Positions 2,974 to 22,958 of a stretch of 41,461 bases of DNA are shown one piece after another. The DNA comes from Acidobacteriota bacterium. GTDB taxonomy: Bacteria; Acidobacteriota; Terriglobia; Terriglobales; Acidobacteriaceae. Position numbers and translations under genes: made by a program. The stretch covers positions 1-41,461 of the forward strand of contig JAJYUB010000032.1 in assembly GCA_021792795.1 (NCBI GenBank). The letters are read 5' to 3'. Position 1 is the first letter of the stretch, and each line of letters begins with the position of its first letter. The notes under the pieces were generated by a model. That model saw only the letters and a list, made by a program, of their open reading frames with translations, had not been told where the DNA came from and ran no database searches.

Positions 2974-3074
2974 GTATGTGAACGAAATCGAATGCTTCGC
3001 TCCAAATGCTTGCCGAATGCTAACCATCTACATTTAAGATAAGACAGTCGCAGATGCCGGAAAACAATTGACTT

Positions 3075-4355
3075 ATGGGTGGCGCCAACCTGATGGGGAC
3101 AGTGATGGAAAGAAATTGCAGCGGAGAAGTTCGCGGAAAATTTCCTCTGCCTGCGATTCTCCGCCGATTCGCGGTGGCAATTGCAGTTCTAACAGTAGCG
3201 GCTTGGGGAATCAGTTTCTTCTGCTATCGAGTTTTGCATCTGCACTATCCGTATTCCTATCCGATGGTGCCCCGGCAGTTTCGCCAACTGGATTTCACCA
3301 TGTACTCGGGCTGTTTTCCGCAGTTGCCGCACTTTCCGGAAACCTGCGCGAATTACACTGCTTATCCTGCGTCAGCCCTCATGGTGTATCAGTTTTTTTT
3401 CCTGTTTCCCCATCCGCTGCTGGTGTTTATGGCCGCCGGAGTAGGCGTTTTTGCGGTAGCAGCAATCCTGTTAGCGCGCGCACTAGTGCGACGCGGCGTG
3501 GCTTGGCGGAGCGCATATCTCTATTGCGGAACAGCGCTGATTTGCTCCTATCCGATTTTGTTCGTGATGGACCAGGGCAACATTGAGGTTTATCTGTGGC
3601 TGGTCCTCGCTCTGGGAGTGTGGGCCTATATGCGGGGCGGCTGGACGCTGGCGGCTACGCTGTTCGGAGTGGCCGCTTCGATGAAGCTATACCCGGCTGT
3701 ATACCTGGGGCTGCTGCTGGCGAAGAAGCGTTATAAGGCATTTTTCTTCGGAATCCTGGTGGCAATCCTGGCGACAATAGTTTCGCTGTGGATCTTAGGC
3801 CCCACTATCCACCTTGCCTACCTGGGAGTTAACCAGAGGCTGCACAATTTTGGTTCCACCTATGTATCGACAACACAGCCCGGCGGGATTGGATTCGACC
3901 ACTCGCTGTTCAGTTTGGTGAAGGCATCGCTACCGGACCACAACTATCAGGCGTACGTCGGCCTGTATCTGCCATTGGCGGCGGTTGTGGGAACCGTAGT
4001 ATATTTCTGGCGAATTTGGCGGCTACCTCGAATCAACCAGGTTTTGGCGCTTACGATTGCGGCAGTTGTGTTACCGCCGTTTTCCATTGAGTACACCTTG
4101 ATTCATCTTTATATTCCCTGGGCCTTGTTGACACTCTATGCGGTTGAGACAGCAGAATCATCCGGAAGCTTGCAGCGGGTGCGCGGGCTGGGCGTTTGCT
4201 TTGTATGCTTTGCATTCCTAATGACGCCCGAAAGCTACTTTATCGTCGACAAAATCCGATTCAGCGGACAACTGAAAGCGCTGGTGCTGGTGGCGCTGTT
4301 CGTGGCTGCCCTGCGGTATCCGTTCGCTGAGACGGTGGAGACGAAGAGCGCCTGA
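3075..4355 (+). CDS. GT87-type (DUF2029) membrane glycosyltransferase
   Basis: A 426-residue, very hydrophobic protein with about ten membrane helices. The pattern fits family GT87/DUF2029, polyprenyl-phosphate-sugar-dependent mannosyl- or glucosyltransferases of the GT-C fold: an acidic residue and TMYSG in the first large extracytoplasmic loop, MDQGNIEVYLWLVLAL in mid-protein, and SMKLYPAVYLGLLL typical of the family. Such enzymes add single sugars to lipid-linked glycans on the periplasmic side; the substrate here is unknown. It is convergent with another multi-pass protein 18 bp away. ATGs at 3093 and 3105 are alternative starts, the latter with a better GGGGA ribosome-binding stretch. 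Confidence 0.78.
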   Translation: MGGANLMGTVMERNCSGEVRGKFPLPAILRRFAVAIAVLTVAAWGISFFCYRVLHLHYPYSYPMVPRQFRQLDFTMYSGCFPQLPHFPETCANYTAYPASALMVYQFFFLFPHPLLVFMAAGVGVFAVAAILLARALVRRGVAWRSAYLYCGTALICSYPILFVMDQGNIEVYLWLVLALGVWAYMRGGWTLAATLFGVAASMKLYPAVYLGLLLAKKRYKAFFFGILVAILATIVSLWILGPTIHLAYLGVNQRLHNFGSTYVSTTQPGGIGFDHSLFSLVKASLPDHNYQAYVGLYLPLAAVVGTVVYFWRIWRLPRINQVLALTIAAVVLPPFSIEYTLIHLYIPWALLTLYAVETAESSGSLQRVRGLGVCFVCFAFLMTPESYFIVDKIRFSGQLKALVLVALFVAALRYPFAETVETKSA

Positions 4356-4373
4356 ACGCGCGAAGCTCGCGGG

Positions 4374-6029
4374 CTAATTCATCCCGCCGGGAAGTCTGGA
4401 TGCGAACGGCGACGTGCAGTCGGAGTACCACCCGTGCAGATTGCACACCCAATCACGCGACGGTTCGCTGCTATCCAACCGCTTGACAATGGCTAGCAAT
4501 TCTGGGGTCGTCAGAGTCCCTGTGAATAGCAGTAAATTTGCGCGCGGCATAATTTTTTCGCGTGCGGTTTCGGAATGAAGCAGCAATTGATACACGTCTC
4601 CAGGGGAATCCTGGAATGAAGGCGTCAACTGTCGGCTCAACTGATGGACACGCGAACCCAGCGGTACATATGCCTCATATAACCAGCCTCCATTTAGAAG
4701 CATTGAGCCGCTTTTACGAAAATATCTAGCTCCGACCCAATAGTACGGCACATAGTTGAGTTCGGTCGTAATGGGTGCATCCGGCAAACTGAGCGTTAGG
4801 CCGGACAGTCCCGCCTGACCGACCGGCGCTGTCTCAATCTCCGAGATTTGCGCGGCAACGGGTCGAATCATGGAGTTCGCCAACACAAGAACTGCGAAGG
4901 AATAGAGCAGGACGCTCGCCGCCAGGAGAGTTTCTTTCGGTCGACCTAACCCTCCAAAACCGCTGGCTGCGGCTAGCGCCCCGATCCATACAAATACAAC
5001 CAGACGCTGAGAAAAATAGTTTGCCCCATTGATCACAGGCGGAAGAATTGGGACCGCAATCGTCAGAATCAGCGAGCCGACAAGAAAGGCCGTGGCAGGT
5101 GTGTACGCCCAGTGAAACCTGCCAGCCGCAGAAGAAGCAAGAACCAACGCGAGCAGGAGAATTGCGTACAACGATAAGCGGTACGCGATGACTGCGGGAT
5201 GCGACCCGGAGAACATCGCGAGGGTGCTTAGCTTGGCGAGTTTGACGAGCGCCGCTTTGCGGTCATAGCTCTGCAATATGTTGCTTACAACCCGATGCTT
5301 TCCTACAAATAGCAATATGTACCCGATCGTTGCCCAGGCACCCGCCATGTATTGCAAATCCAGCCAATAGCGCTTGACGCCGACCTTGAAATGAGCGGCG
5401 CTCAACCCGGCCGACTTTAGGTCCCCAGTGAACCGGCAAAAGACATCCGCCCCCACCATGACGTAGATGAATAGCAGAGGCACCGGATGCGTCAGCGTCA
5501 TCAGGATTACTACAGCCAGAAATGCCAGCCACAATCGATGGCTACGCCGCTCCACAGCGCGATACCAAAAACCCAGGGCCCAAAGGGCCATGCCAATCGC
5601 GAGGCAATAGTTATAGAACCCCATCCCCAAGGGCCAGTTGAGCAGAAGCGGAACGATAAAAAGCGATAAAAGATCGCCGCTGGGGCCGAGAAATCTGGCT
5701 AGATAGCGAAAACCAAAAGCCGTGGTAATGAAAATAAGGCAAACCAGGAGCTTGTCTGCCATGACATAGCCGAAGAAGTGCGCAACAGCGATTAAAAAAT
5801 AATAATGCAGCGCGTAGGGCGGCAAGATGTGGCGAATGAAATAGTAACTCGCAAACTCTTTCGACCCGGAGAGCAAACTTCCCAGGACTGACGCGTAGTA
5901 AAGATGCAGAGACCCATCGAGCGAGGGGAAGAGAGGAAGAGTGAAAATCCACGCGCAGTACAAAGCCAGCAAGATCAAAAATGGCGCTAAATATCCGGCG
6001 GTTTTTTCTTCCGACTGACCAGAAACCAT
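4374..6029 (-). CDS. Multi-pass membrane protein, GT-C-like, function unknown
   Basis: A 551-residue integral membrane protein with about ten to twelve helices in the first ~400 residues and a soluble C-terminal domain of about 150 residues ending near a Cys-containing segment (VCNLHGWYSDCTSPF). The first extracytoplasmic loop has FPSLDGSLHLYY, reminiscent of the acidic first loop of GT-C glycosyltransferases, followed by several aromatic-rich helices. I do not recognise a specific family, and transport or polymerase roles are not excluded. The ATG at 6029 follows AAGGCGG at reasonable spacing; a TTG at 6035 is the alternative. It lies downstream of enolase on the same strand, but the hairpin at 6091-6114 suggests separate transcription. 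Confidence 0.6.
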   Translation of the reverse strand: MVSGQSEEKTAGYLAPFLILLALYCAWIFTLPLFPSLDGSLHLYYASVLGSLLSGSKEFASYYFIRHILPPYALHYYFLIAVAHFFGYVMADKLLVCLIFITTAFGFRYLARFLGPSGDLLSLFIVPLLLNWPLGMGFYNYCLAIGMALWALGFWYRAVERRSHRLWLAFLAVVILMTLTHPVPLLFIYVMVGADVFCRFTGDLKSAGLSAAHFKVGVKRYWLDLQYMAGAWATIGYILLFVGKHRVVSNILQSYDRKAALVKLAKLSTLAMFSGSHPAVIAYRLSLYAILLLALVLASSAAGRFHWAYTPATAFLVGSLILTIAVPILPPVINGANYFSQRLVVFVWIGALAAASGFGGLGRPKETLLAASVLLYSFAVLVLANSMIRPVAAQISEIETAPVGQAGLSGLTLSLPDAPITTELNYVPYYWVGARYFRKSGSMLLNGGWLYEAYVPLGSRVHQLSRQLTPSFQDSPGDVYQLLLHSETAREKIMPRANLLLFTGTLTTPELLAIVKRLDSSEPSRDWVCNLHGWYSDCTSPFASRLPGGMN

Positions 6030-18337: not shown

Positions 18338-20668
18338 TTACCTTGCTGGTTCAGCCTCCGTCTGCTGGATTTCTGCGCCGGAGGGGTTTGCGGGGGTCGG
18401 CCCTGTGGATGCTTCACCGGGAAAAGCTTCGTCTGGATGGTCGGCGATGGCCGTTCGCATGAAGCTCATCCAGATGGGCAACGCCACGCGCGCGCCGGTT
18501 TCCTTGTCCCCCAGGGATTGGCGATCGTCGTAGCCGACCCAGACGCCGCAAGTGATGGACGGGGAAAATCCAAGGAACCATGCGTCGGTAAAGTCATTGG
18601 TCGTGCCAGTCTTGCCTCCCAGGGGATGATGCAATTGGCTGGCGACGGCCCCCGTCCCCTGATGGGCAACCGCCTCGAACATCTGCATCATTTGCCGCGC
18701 CGTTTTCTGGTCCGTGGAGACATGCACGTCGGGGGTATCGTCCCACAAAACCTCTCCGTCGGCGGTGGTCACACGGTGGACAAAGTGGGGTGTCACGCGA
18801 ATGCCATCGTTCGGAAAGCTGCTGTAGGCCGCCACCTGCTCATCCAGGCTGATCTCCGCCGCGCCTAACGCGATGGGCAGGAATGCGGGAATGTCGGAGG
18901 TGACCCCAAACCGATGCGCGGTCGCAATCACTTTGTGGATACCGACCTGGTCCGCCAGTTTCAGCGCAGGAATATTCAGGGAATCGGCGAAGGCGCGCTG
19001 CAGCGTGACATTTCCCAGGTAGCGATGCTCATAATCGTGCGGAATGTAGGGGCCGGACGCGGTACGGAACGTGGTCGGCCCATCGAGAATGATGCTGTCG
19101 GGTTTGTACCCATCTTCCATGGCCGCCGTGTAGTCATAGATCTTGAAGGACGAGCCGGTTTGCCGTTGCGCCTGAGTGGCGCGGTCATATTGGGAAAGAT
19201 TGAAGTCTCGACCGCCCACCAGCGCAAGAATGTCCCCGCTGGGATTGTCTACGGTCATCAGCGCAGCCTGTACGCCGCTGTCTTGTTCCAGGGAGGCATC
19301 CAGCAAATTGCCATCTTCCTGCCCGCTTCCTGCCGACGGGGCGACCGCAATTTTGCTGACGGACTGTTGGCCAGCCGCTTGCGGCAGAATGCGCACATAC
19401 ACAATATCGCCGGTCTGAAGCAGGTCCGTGGCCAGTTCCTTTTTCGTCCAGGCCCAACCCTCGGGAGCGATGATGGCGCTCCGATTCTCACCCACGCGCA
19501 CCGTCACTTCATACGGCAGCGCCTCCGTCACCACCCCATGGATGTAGGTTCCCGGCGTTGGATTGGTGTTCCAGTCCGGATGACGGAATGCATCGATGGA
19601 ACTGCCGGCGGCGATCACGTTCAACAGGTTGCCGCGCCAACCTCGTCGGCGTTCATAGGAGGCGAGTCCATCCAAGACGGCAGCGTTCGCCGCCTGTTGC
19701 AGTTTCAGGTCCAGCGTGGTGTAGACGCGCAGCCCCGATTGGTGCACCATGTCCGAGCCGAATCTCCGGTCCAGCTCCTTGCGGACTTCCTCGACGAACC
19801 AAGGGGCGACCGTGTTCGGAGGCGGTTCGATATGCAGCCCCAACGGGCTGGATTTCGCTTCCGCTGCCTGTTGCGCGGTAACGACGCCATCCTCCAGCAT
19901 CGCATTCAAGACCAGATTGCGCCGGACAAGCGCCCGCTCCGGATGGGTCACGGGAGAGTAATAGGAAGGCCCGCGAGGAAGCGCGGCCAGCAAGGCGGCC
20001 TCCGGCAGGGTCACCTCGCGCGCATGTTTGCTGAAGTAGTATTCCGACCCGGCTTCAAACCCATACACGCCCTGGCCCAGATAAATCTGGTTGGCATACA
20101 GGGTAAAAATCTGTTGCTTGGTAAAATTCCTCTCAATCTGAATGGAGAGCAGCACTTCCTGCAGCTTGCGATGAAACGATCGTTCCGGAGAGAGAAACAG
20201 GTTCTTGGCCAACTGCATGGTCAAGGTTGAAGCGCCCTGTGCGCGCCGGTCCGCAGTCAGGTCTCGATACGCAGCCCCTGCCACACGAAACAAGTTCACT
20301 CCCCAGTGGCTTTCAAAATTCTTGTCTTCAATGGAAATGACAGCATGGCGGAGCATCGGAGAGAGGTCGTCGTACCCGACAACAATACGGCGCTCCAGCG
20401 CGAACGATCCAATCTGGCTGCCGTGGGCGTCGTACAGCAGTGTTGTCGTATTGGGCCGGTATCGTTCAAGGTCCTGTATCTGAGGAAGGTCCACCGTATA
20501 GATCAGCAGCAGTCCGCTGAGCGCGCCAAACATCGCCGCCAGAGTTGCGAGGACCGCAAATGCCGCCGATCCGGCCAGCTTTTTCCGCCGATTGGAGGGT
20601 GGACGAAAATCGGCCCGGCGTACGCCGCCGTGCAGTCCGTGGGACGACTTAAATGCTGGAGGTGTCAA
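18338..20668 (-). CDS. Class A penicillin-binding protein (PBP1A type)
   Basis: A bifunctional peptidoglycan synthase. After one membrane helix (about 31-57) comes the GT51 glycosyltransferase domain with IEDKNFESHWG (catalytic Glu near 114) and GASTLTMQLAKNLFL. The transpeptidase domain has all three motifs: S506-S-F-K509, S563-L-N and K686-T-G. Length is 776 residues from a TTG at 20668, which has AGGA about seven bases upstream. The frame extends to another TTG at 20842, but that stretch is atypical and abuts a palindrome. It polymerises and cross-links glycan strands at the inner membrane. It is convergent with ribF. Confidence 0.93.
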   Translation of the reverse strand: MTPPAFKSSHGLHGGVRRADFRPPSNRRKKLAGSAAFAVLATLAAMFGALSGLLLIYTVDLPQIQDLERYRPNTTTLLYDAHGSQIGSFALERRIVVGYDDLSPMLRHAVISIEDKNFESHWGVNLFRVAGAAYRDLTADRRAQGASTLTMQLAKNLFLSPERSFHRKLQEVLLSIQIERNFTKQQIFTLYANQIYLGQGVYGFEAGSEYYFSKHAREVTLPEAALLAALPRGPSYYSPVTHPERALVRRNLVLNAMLEDGVVTAQQAAEAKSSPLGLHIEPPPNTVAPWFVEEVRKELDRRFGSDMVHQSGLRVYTTLDLKLQQAANAAVLDGLASYERRRGWRGNLLNVIAAGSSIDAFRHPDWNTNPTPGTYIHGVVTEALPYEVTVRVGENRSAIIAPEGWAWTKKELATDLLQTGDIVYVRILPQAAGQQSVSKIAVAPSAGSGQEDGNLLDASLEQDSGVQAALMTVDNPSGDILALVGGRDFNLSQYDRATQAQRQTGSSFKIYDYTAAMEDGYKPDSIILDGPTTFRTASGPYIPHDYEHRYLGNVTLQRAFADSLNIPALKLADQVGIHKVIATAHRFGVTSDIPAFLPIALGAAEISLDEQVAAYSSFPNDGIRVTPHFVHRVTTADGEVLWDDTPDVHVSTDQKTARQMMQMFEAVAHQGTGAVASQLHHPLGGKTGTTNDFTDAWFLGFSPSITCGVWVGYDDRQSLGDKETGARVALPIWMSFMRTAIADHPDEAFPGEASTGPTPANPSGAEIQQTEAEPAR

Positions 20669-20845
20669 GGACAGTCCTGATGCAATTCTCGTACAGCTTC
20701 GAGCAAATCGTGGAATTCTGCGCCCTTGGCAGAGTTTCTCCTGGGCAAAATCGCAAGGCCCGGGTCCGAACTCAGAAGGAATCTGTCGAATGGCTTCGCC
20801 TAGCGCGGATTTCCTGTTGCGTCGCCCATCCGGGTCCAACAATGA

Positions 20846-20867
20846 GCGTCTCGCCGCGGCGAGACGC
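20846..20867. repeat. Perfect 22-bp palindrome upstream of the PBP1A gene
   Basis: GCGTCTCGCC-GC-GGCGAGACGC reads the same on both strands. It lies 74 bp past the S41-family stop and about 180 bp before the PBP start. No U-tract follows, so it may be a factor-dependent terminator, an mRNA-end hairpin or a protein-binding site. Confidence 0.7.
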
Positions 20868-20940
20868 GCGAAGATTGACCACTTCGATTACGCCCATACG
20901 AAATCCGCTCTCTCGCATGTCGGGGGGACTGCGTGTCTGC

Positions 20941-22197
20941 CTACGCGGCCTTGTCTTGCTTCAACAACTCCAGTGCTTTGTTCAACTGATCGTCCGGCTG
21001 GGCTGCCGCAGGCGGCGCAGGGCTGGCCTTCGCGGCTCCGGGCGGTGTAGGGACCGTCACCAGGCCATGCGGTGAAGCTGGCGTCTGTAATCCAAAACCA
21101 CTGTTCGCAGCCACCATGACATTCGGCGTTACGGCCTTGTCCTGAATGGCTTCCCCGTCCGGCGCATGATATTTGGCGACCGAAAGAAACAACATGGCGC
21201 CATCTGGCAGAGGGATCTGCTTTTGTACAGAACCCGCACCGAAGGTGCGGTCGCCCACGAGCTGGGCGCGTTTGTTCTCCTTTAGCGCAGCCGCTACAAT
21301 TTCCGCCGGCCCCGAGGTCCCGTGGTTCACCAGGACCATCAGCGGAGCGGAGGTGACAAAATTCTTTGGGTCAGCCGTCCAGGCTTGTTTCGGGTAGGTC
21401 TGGCCTTCCAGAGTGGCAATGGTGCCCGACTTTAAAAAAGCATTCGCAAGCTCGACTGCGGAGTTCATATCTCCGCCGGTCACGTCGCGCAGGTCGAGCA
21501 GGACCTTTTGCTTTCCTGTGGCCTGGACATGCCGCAGTTTCGTCAACATGTCATCCACTCTGTTCTGGGTCAGGTCGTACGGCTTCAGATAGAGAATGCT
21601 GCTGTTCTCATACTCGTCTACGTGCAGCGCCGGATAGTCGGTCGTGGAGCGGGTGAGTGTCATGGCGTCGGGGGTGGCGCTGGTCGGCTCAATCACGGAG
21701 AAATGCAGCGTCGAGCCTGGCTGGCCGTCGAGCGACATCTGGATCAACTGCAATGGCATGACGCGGGTGCTTTGATTGCCAATCTCTTCAATCACATCTC
21801 CATCGACGATCCCGGCGTGGTCGGCGGGGCTGCCCGGAACGACAGACACGACCGTCGCGTAACCGTAGCGCTTGGAAATATGTACGCCGATTTGAGCTTT
21901 GCTTTCGCTCTCTCGCGATTGGTAGAGCTTGAACTCGGACGCGGTCAGATAACCGGAATCCGGATCCAGGCCCTCCAGCAGTCCATGCAGCGCGCCGGTG
22001 GTCACGTCGGGGATGTTCGGGGTCACCACATAGTCATTCTGAATGTACTGCAGGACTTCGCTATAAACTTCCATCTGCTGATAGGCGCTCGCATCCGAGC
22101 CGGCGCGAACGCCACCGGGCAGAAATCCGCCCAGGAAAACAAACACGATCAGCAACACTGAGATTGCGAGCAAAGAAAGTTTCAGAGCTTTAGGCAT
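20941..22197 (-). CDS. S41/CtpA-like protein with substituted catalytic residues
   Basis: A 418-residue exported or membrane-anchored protein with the layout of C-terminal processing peptidases: an N-terminal hydrophobic segment (about 7-28), a PDZ domain (about 100-180, with GVHISKRYGYATVVSVVPG and GIVDGDVIEEIG), then the S41 core. In active members the core reads LVNxxSASASE and TFGKGSVQ. Here the matching stretches are LVNHGTSGPAEI (291-300) and GDRTFGAGSVQ (316-325). The nucleophile position is Gly296 and the general-base Lys is Ala321. A Ser lies one place early (295). The fold seems intact and the C-terminal tail is Pro/Ala-rich, so a non-proteolytic PDZ scaffold is more likely than an active protease (inference). 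The start has no strong Shine-Dalgarno. Confidence 0.85.
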   Translation of the reverse strand: MPKALKLSLLAISVLLIVFVFLGGFLPGGVRAGSDASAYQQMEVYSEVLQYIQNDYVVTPNIPDVTTGALHGLLEGLDPDSGYLTASEFKLYQSRESESKAQIGVHISKRYGYATVVSVVPGSPADHAGIVDGDVIEEIGNQSTRVMPLQLIQMSLDGQPGSTLHFSVIEPTSATPDAMTLTRSTTDYPALHVDEYENSSILYLKPYDLTQNRVDDMLTKLRHVQATGKQKVLLDLRDVTGGDMNSAVELANAFLKSGTIATLEGQTYPKQAWTADPKNFVTSAPLMVLVNHGTSGPAEIVAAALKENKRAQLVGDRTFGAGSVQKQIPLPDGAMLFLSVAKYHAPDGEAIQDKAVTPNVMVAANSGFGLQTPASPHGLVTVPTPPGAAKASPAPPAAAQPDDQLNKALELLKQDKAA

Positions 22198-22538
22198 ACG
22201 TAAATTAGGGGCGGCACGCGGACAACAGCGCCGTTGCTATCAGTGTACAGCTTTCACCGCAAAGTGAAGGAATCGGTGGACGCGAAATACCTCGCCAAAA
22301 TACATTTGGAATGCCAAGCGCGGAAACGCACGCTTGGCCAATGTCCGCCTTCACAGACACATGGCATTCAGCCGGGTCATGCTCCATTACGCCAGGAGCA
22401 GATGGAGGTAGAAAATGTATGGAGTGAAATGGCATGTCACAAACGCGATTCGATCGTCTGGCTCGCAATCGACCCTGAAAGCGCAGGCTTTTTCCAATTC
22501 GCACGCGAGTTTAATACCCAGTGAACGCGCTCTCCGGC
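22198..22538. other. Gene-free region (~340 bp) with one hairpin
   Basis: Lies between the cytochrome gene and the S41-family gene, both leftward. The only structure seen is GCCAAGCG / CGCTTGGC (22313-22320 with 22331-22338, 10-base loop), a weak terminator candidate for the cytochrome transcript. The promoter of the S41 gene is presumably here but was not identified. Confidence 0.4.
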
Positions 22539-22958
22539 CTACTTTTTCGACATGGAGCGCAGGTAGACCACCAGGTTCCAGATCTCGTCGTCCTTGGCGC
22601 GATCTTCCCCTGGCATTTTTCCCTGCCCGTTCTTAATGATGTAGAAAAGCTCTCCATCCGTCCGGTTTTTCAAGGTGTCCGGATTGGTGAAGTCCATCAT
22701 TGTCAGACTCATGTCCGAAATGATTCCAGGATCTCCCTTGCCGTCGCCTTTGGCCCCATGACACATGGCGCAGTCGATCCCATACACATTCTTGGCGTGG
22801 GCCTGGGACTCGGTTGTGGGGGTGATCGGGTTAACCATACGTGCCGCTGCGACGGGAATCACCGTAAGGGCAGGCGTAGCAGGCGCAGGAGCGGTCGTTT
22901 TCTGCTGGGGCGAGAGCGCAAAGAGTAGAGGAAGAAGGGCGAAGACAGGATTCGGCAT
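22539..22958 (-). CDS. Monohaem c-type cytochrome
   Basis: A 139-residue periplasmic electron carrier. A short hydrophobic N-terminus (MPNPVFALLPLLFAL) directs export. The haem-binding motif C63-A-M-C66-H67 is followed by GAKGDGKGDPG, and Met115 in NGQGKMPG is the likely sixth haem ligand, the arrangement of class I / c6-like cytochromes. The C-terminal helix with EIWNLVVYLRSMSKK is typical. The ATG at 22958 has an ideal AGGAGG eight bases ahead. No oxidase or reductase gene is adjacent, so the partner is unknown. Confidence 0.92.
   Translation of the reverse strand: MPNPVFALLPLLFALSPQQKTTAPAPATPALTVIPVAAARMVNPITPTTESQAHAKNVYGIDCAMCHGAKGDGKGDPGIISDMSLTMMDFTNPDTLKNRTDGELFYIIKNGQGKMPGEDRAKDDEIWNLVVYLRSMSKK

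Follow-up and report, generated by a model that had tools for sequence, protein, structure and literature searches.

What purpose is served by a bacterial gene of the protease type CtpA once both of the residues with which its product would cut have been replaced? The question is posed by an open reading frame on the minus strand of the window, by which we mean the whole stretch of 41,461 nucleotides of DNA from a soil acidobacterium that was analysed. This short-type CtpA gene runs from 22197 down to 20941 (20941..22197, stop codon included) and encodes a protein of 418 amino acids with a signal or anchor segment, a PDZ domain and an S41 domain. The first-pass annotation had given the span with both ends exact and had named no strand. 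We consider it probable that the protein is the CtpA orthologue of its phylum, that its proteolytic activity was lost in an early ancestor, and that it has been kept for a job other than cutting. The early date of the loss is something that we infer.

The features described here and below all lie on the minus strand. A hydrophobic N-terminal helix (residues 3-25, 22123..22191), found in the AlphaFold model and kept as a hydrophobic segment in the alignment, would be a signal anchor or a signal peptide. It is followed by a PDZ domain at about residues 99-170 (21688..21903), which is matched by the Pfam models PDZ_6, PDZ_2 and PDZ, the PDZ_6 match (8.5e-10) covering residues 116-165 ahead of the protease core. 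The Peptidase_S41 domain occupies residues 202-361 (21115..21594; Pfam, 3.6e-37), and its score of 127.9 bits against PF03572, for which the cut-off is 24, places the protein in the S41 family by descent and fold. The best NCBIfam model is TIGR00225 (prc), whose 191.8 bits fall below the cut-off of 218.6. A Pro/Ala-rich linker leads to a C-terminal helix of the pattern DxQLxKAL (residues 402-414, 20956..20994), which is indicated by the model and by the conserved D402, L405 and K407. Mean pLDDT is 83.8 for the model, with values below 50 at residues 369-387 and 93 in the block 401-410. When the model was superposed with VIA-align on H. pylori CtpA (9ku0), 341 residues matched at 3.2 A with a Z score of 36.9. 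This match and the Pfam PDZ hits bear out the initial impression that the PDZ domain and the fold have been retained.

It is at the catalytic positions that the protein departs from its active relatives. The best-matching solved structures are the CtpA proteins of H. pylori and P. aeruginosa. By alignment, Gly296 (codon GGG, 21310..21312, read from 21312 to 21310) takes the place of the nucleophile Ser, and Ala321 (codon GCG, 21235..21237, read from 21237 to 21235) that of the general-base Lys. HMMER aligns the window motifs NHGTSGPAE and TFGAGSVQ, without gaps, to nggsasase and tfgkgsvq of H. pylori CtpA, such that Gly296 and Ala321 pair with S300 and K325. Both substitutions are thus as the first-pass annotation had claimed. 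The same two columns hold S300A and K325A in the chain of the H. pylori triple mutant (S300A/K325A/Q329A; 9ku3). Gln325, which corresponds to Q329 of H. pylori CtpA, is retained.

Two supporting residues have also been replaced in the alignment. Asp80 (21958..21960) is found where the active enzymes have a His that supports activity (His-84 in P. aeruginosa CtpA, His-85 in H. pylori CtpA), and Asp157 (21727..21729) where H. pylori CtpA has a PDZ Arg (Arg162, which appears in PMC12749690 as a mutant primer). In a count of 192 rows that includes the long-type protein L241, which is left out of the larger count given below, position 80 is His in a single row, that of L241 itself, and 22 rows, L241 again among them, have Arg at position 157. 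These two losses count for little, because several comparison proteins with Ser and Lys also depart there, for example L205, L214 and L225-L227 at the His and L001, L203 and L225 at the Arg. According to PMC11021448, S302A and K327A each abolish the in vivo activity of P. aeruginosa CtpA, whereas the effect is minor for Q331A and moderate for H84A. PMC12749690 describes no cleavage by H. pylori CtpA S300A and largely lowered activity for H85A. Judging by its residues and by the published P. aeruginosa mutants, the window protein would be expected to have no protease activity.

The same loss is found well beyond this one genome. A first table, limited to the 30 top-scoring matches from 41 genomes, contained 31 short-type rows for 30 distinct loci (the window gene appears twice, as L002 and L003), and all 31 have Gly at site 296 and no Lys at site 321, where A, S, T, M, D, E, V or I is found instead. 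The sole long-type row, L001, is the second of two S41 genes in the window's own genome and has Ser and Lys. We then counted a wider collection of 260 proteins from the same class and phylum, 33 of which are long-type or outgroup sequences. Removal of repeats and poorly covered rows gave 222 distinct short-type proteins, with 67 numbered families represented; left out were L002, L021, L040 and L054 (repeats or partial sequences), identical proteins, rows alike over residues 60-360 and rows with more than 150 gaps there. This sample is not random, being drawn from best matches, and 117 of the 222 have no family number, most of these being Acidobacteriaceae-type loci. A PF03572 search over 200 genomes of the class was too broad for telling the short type from the long type, and other phyla are represented by five plasmid-borne outgroups. 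The named records are mostly labelled Acidobacteria, Acidobacteriaceae or genera of these, with a few labelled otherwise, and the named carriers include Terriglobus roseus DSM 18391, Granulicella mallensis and Edaphobacter aggregans. Three records titled Rhodanobacteraceae, Verrucomicrobia and Proteobacteria (L093, L098 and L100) hold Acidobacteriaceae-type versions of the gene that are 52-56% identical, and are probably mislabelled or mixed bins.

Within this collection the Ser-Lys pair is absent from 207 of the 222 orthologues: 199 have neither residue, 6 have Ser only, 2 have Lys only and 15 have both. The comparison set of 28 long-type and 5 outgroup proteins has Ser and Lys in 32 of 33 cases, and the exception, L222 (a 40.8-bit match), probably does not align properly. 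A sequencing error or an oddity of a single genome is ruled out by the recurrence of the loss in 30 distinct loci and in those 207 orthologues. Misalignment is likewise ruled out, given that the mutant chain aligns ungapped at both sites, that Glu299 is fixed (222/222) and that Gly320, which adjoins site 321, is kept in 220 of 222 (entropy 0.07 bits). In trees built without both catalytic columns and their neighbours, the short-type proteins form one clade (support 100/99; three trees) that excludes both the long type and alphaproteobacterial CtpA. Rooted on the latter, the short type is no closer to alphaproteobacterial CtpA than the long type is; deep branches are weak in two trees. One tree omitted L220, L221, L217, L208, L227, L226, L214, L206, L225, L137 and L132 as long branches or outliers, and was also thinned by 17 rows from families already represented.

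The residues that now occupy the two sites differ in how strongly they are held. Site 296 is Gly in 191 of the 222 (entropy 0.83 bits). At site 321, where 205 proteins have a residue other than Lys, Glu is the commonest (78), Ala is found in 11 and the entropy is 3.27 bits. The idea that Gly and Ala might both be conserved in a clade therefore holds for Gly296 and fails for Ala321, though the absence of Lys is itself widespread. A variable site 321 together with a site 296 that is mostly Gly is what would be expected if the base had become useless and a small residue were still needed, and the mostly fixed Gly296 would fit a groove that still has to hold peptide. The PDZ domain carries a clade signature of its own, [ST]KRxGYA at residues 108-114, in which Lys109 (184/222) and Tyr113 (187/222) are prominent; both positions are variable in the comparison set.

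Might such a protein still cut, or might its gene simply be on the way out? A displaced active site, with Thr294 or Ser295 as nucleophile and the clade-conserved Lys326 as base, could be imagined from the fact that position 294 is Thr or Ser in all 222 orthologues and position 326 is Lys in 161, and PMC10211241 speaks in general terms of pseudoenzymes whose catalytic residues have migrated. We regard this as very improbable. Ser or Thr at position 294 is also present in 32 of the 33 comparison proteins, which have a nucleophile of their own; position 295 is Ala in 114 of the 222; and Lys326 should point away from the site in the model, because it lies next to Gln325 on a strand. Ser295, which the first-pass annotation had named as a dyad Ser that would refute its reading, is ruled out as the nucleophile: it pairs with the Ala that precedes the nucleophile in the CtpA motif and is Ser in just 50 of the 222. 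The thought that the gene is decaying and heading for loss draws on the alteration of both catalytic codons, and is ruled out for practical purposes by the pattern of substitution. Between the window gene and six relatives dN/dS is 0.068-0.174 overall (counted with a custom script, some dS values being near saturation), and the gene is under purifying selection. Invariant alignment columns, and the presence of the gene in 67 numbered families of the phylum, argue against decay as well. What defines a pseudoprotease, namely the absence of catalytic residues with retention of fold and selection, is found in the window protein as far as sequence and model can tell. The earlier description of a retained pseudo-protease is supported by the loss of the dyad in 207 of 222 orthologues, the kept fold and the purifying selection.

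The genes nearby provide some direction as to what the protein might do. Next downstream, at 18338..20842, is a gene for a bifunctional penicillin-binding protein of the PBP1A family, with Transgly and Transpeptidase matches and a TIGR02074 match above cut-off. Its true start is probably inside this open reading frame: in L004, a close relative, the beginning of the PBP1A open reading frame is read in another frame, so that the mechanical start probably lies too far upstream. Between the pseudoprotease and PBP1A genes is a GC-rich hairpin (20846..20867) with 9 pairs, 7 of them G-C, a loop of 4 and a weak T run, which might act in regulation or as a partial terminator. A scan of 20400-22600 gave no sigma-70-like promoter, against 0.8 expected. 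Because the start is uncertain, no promoter was found and a hairpin lies between the genes, we hold a shared operon with PBP1A as a likely linkage only. Upstream of the window gene is a cytochrome c gene, and the window gene does not lie between the envC-like and yibQ-like genes that flank some of its relatives in other families.

Among loci with at least 500 nucleotides of downstream sequence (taken from 80 named and 23 family loci, two sets that share some genomes), 64 of 74 named loci and 17 of 21 family loci, the window included, have a PBP1A gene on the same strand no more than 250 nucleotides downstream. In the 10 named exceptions PBP1A is further off in 6 and was not seen in 4, and of the 4 family exceptions one has it at 260 nucleotides, while larger stretches of the other three genomes show it at 1158 nucleotides in one and not at all in two. 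It is absent at the loci of families f2 and f3, and apart from a weak nearby PBP1A-like match (33% identity) at the f6 locus L151, the link is confined to the window's family. One f2 locus (L192) has as its next downstream gene (2983-4806, minus strand) a modest match to SpoIVB peptidase S55, at 28.7 bits with a cut-off of 25.

Other cell-wall genes accompany the other families. Among 30 further-family loci, 20 have an EnvC-like M23 gene upstream, 13 have a YibQ-like deacetylase gene downstream and 8 have both. In a set of 80 loci, 11 had an upstream match to the M23 model and 8 a downstream match to the YibQ model; elsewhere in that set there are MltG/RuvX or thrS-infC genes, and many are without a match to any model. 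Both EnvC-like and YibQ-like neighbours are also present at L137, L238 and L239. These labels derive from Pfam M23 and Polysacc_deac_2 matches of single representatives and from HMMs grown from them. In Ruegeria an M23 gene is followed by an S41 gene with Ser and Lys. In P. aeruginosa, envC-ctpA-PA5135 is described as an operon that ends with the orthologue of yibQ/sddA (PMC12569750). The order M23-S41-deacetylase, matched in part of the other families, is shared with the P. aeruginosa operon, and the clade is therefore most simply the CtpA of that locus.

Because the dyad is lost and yet the gene is kept, often beside cell-wall genes, a binding or regulatory role rather than a cutting one is probable. 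The context of PBP1A, EnvC-like M23 and YibQ-like deacetylase genes points to the cell-wall machinery, where the protein might serve as a periplasmic PDZ adaptor. P. aeruginosa CtpA is reported to degrade cell-wall hydrolases and so to control them. We picture a protein that would reside in the periplasm, anchored through its N-terminal helix, and would assemble into an oligomer in the manner of CtpA. The tails or flexible stretches of cell-wall enzymes could then enter the PDZ domain and the groove, and these enzymes would be held or recruited there without cleavage. For the window's family, within the Acidobacteriaceae, the likeliest client would be the adjoining PBP1A; elsewhere the candidates are MltG, the YibQ-like deacetylase and EnvC-like M23 proteins. 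Binding does survive in a dead CtpA: according to PMC11021448, S302A CtpA of P. aeruginosa was purified together with LbcA, its partner, and a substrate peptide that had co-purified was seen.

The chief rival to such an adaptor is a role exerted through the long-type S41 protease, in which the short type would be a regulatory pseudo-subunit that either enters mixed assemblies or competes for substrates and thereby protects them. Short and long S41 genes are found together in 36 of 41 genomes of the match list, and Ser and Lys are present in 32 of the 33 comparison sequences. Protein search did not find the short type in G010 (of the same family), G033 or G040, through loss or incomplete assembly, and the long type was not found in the match list for G011 and G018. 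Against this reading, the short type has about 420 amino acids and the long type about 550, they share about 30% identity and, in the window's own genome, they are encoded on different contigs. We consider this rival unlikely, and favour a short-type protein that acts on cell-wall enzymes by binding them.

Comparison with known systems helps to place the protein. It resembles the CtpA proteins of P. aeruginosa and H. pylori in its layout of N-terminal part, PDZ, S41 and C-terminal part, in structure (Z 35.7 and 36.9, with 31% identity to each) and in keeping the Gln of the proposed triad. Unlike them, it has the Ser, the Lys, the supporting His and the PDZ Arg all replaced, and it falls below the TIGR00225 cut-off. 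The vertebrate interphotoreceptor retinoid-binding protein (IRBP/RBP3) is known as a binding protein and is not known to be a protease. It has the S41 core fold (4lur, Z 18.6; sequence match 1.8e-5) and is by name put to ligand-binding use; unlike the window protein, it is a retinoid-binding repeat protein, with 20% identity and no orthologous relationship. The closest laboratory parallels are the dead mutants CtpA S302A (7rqh) and S300A/K325A/Q329A (9ku3), in which the same sites are disabled. The H. pylori triple mutant is still hexameric (PMC12749690), and LbcA binding is retained in the P. aeruginosa mutant (PMC11021448). Unlike these mutants, the state of the window protein is natural and clade-wide, and Gln325 is kept. 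Pseudo-orthocaspases, as described in PMC6426788, are likewise a natural group of bacterial pseudoproteases, although as caspase homologues they belong to a different protease family.

Dead proteins of the S41 fold and dead bacterial proteases are thus known kinds, and we found no account of a dead CtpA orthologue across most of a sampled phylum. Open-licence PMC literature yielded no report of such a clade, which is no proof of absence from print; the word 'inactive' has 0 occurrences in PMC6411480. A short-type CtpA that lacks the dyad nearly everywhere and is nevertheless conserved separates the binding role from cutting, so that nature itself provides a test of the functions left to a CTP that lacks catalysis. 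The automatic name 'S41 family peptidase' would be misleading for the majority of these genes. The existence of named members makes the role testable.

The clade is not uniformly dead, because two families within it carry Ser and Lys. These account for the 15 proteins with both residues, and comprise all 12 loci of family f9 and 3 of the 5 loci of f38. Every f9 locus (L170, L171, L179 and L228-L236) carries GSASAAE...SFGKA, and the family has no PDZ Arg, a Tyr at the His position and the SK of the clade signature. By its residues f9 may well be active as a protease, since the Ser/Lys outgroups L225-L227 likewise have Tyr at the His position. In f38 (L247, L274, L275, L277 and L278) the site pair is S/K, G/K or G/R, and the branches follow the order G/R, G/K, then S/K; its neighbour f53 (one locus, L250) has G/K. 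An ABC-ATPase gene is next downstream in five f9 loci (L170, L179, L231, L232 and L233), and the EnvC-like model has no match within the 1-5 kb flanks of the f9 loci.

How these families came by their dyad bears on the history of the whole clade. In a 50-row tree, which has no f38 rows, f9 is nested with support 98/92, and its exact place shifts between four trees. The fewest changes between active and dead states number 2 in two trees and 3 with f38 included; the latter figure corresponds to one loss with two returns, and regain is thus the shorter story. When the 39 dead rows of the 50-row tree are constrained to be monophyletic, the log-likelihood falls by 15.8 units, and the AU test does not reject the constraint (p-AU 0.053). 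Repeated loss, or an early Ser/Lys f9 branch beside a single origin of the dead state, may account for the pattern instead. We put forward only tentatively, as a possible but rather doubtful sequence of events, that the protease died early in the phylum, persisted as a regulator of the cell wall and later had its dyad return twice, in f9 and in part of f38. If this is true, a pseudoenzyme would have turned back into an enzyme in nature, by steps that are still visible in the f38 branch order. If the Ser-Lys families are active, they would also be a rare case for studying the return of activity in a pseudoenzyme. Lys at site 321 is kept more often in f38 and f53 than elsewhere in the clade.
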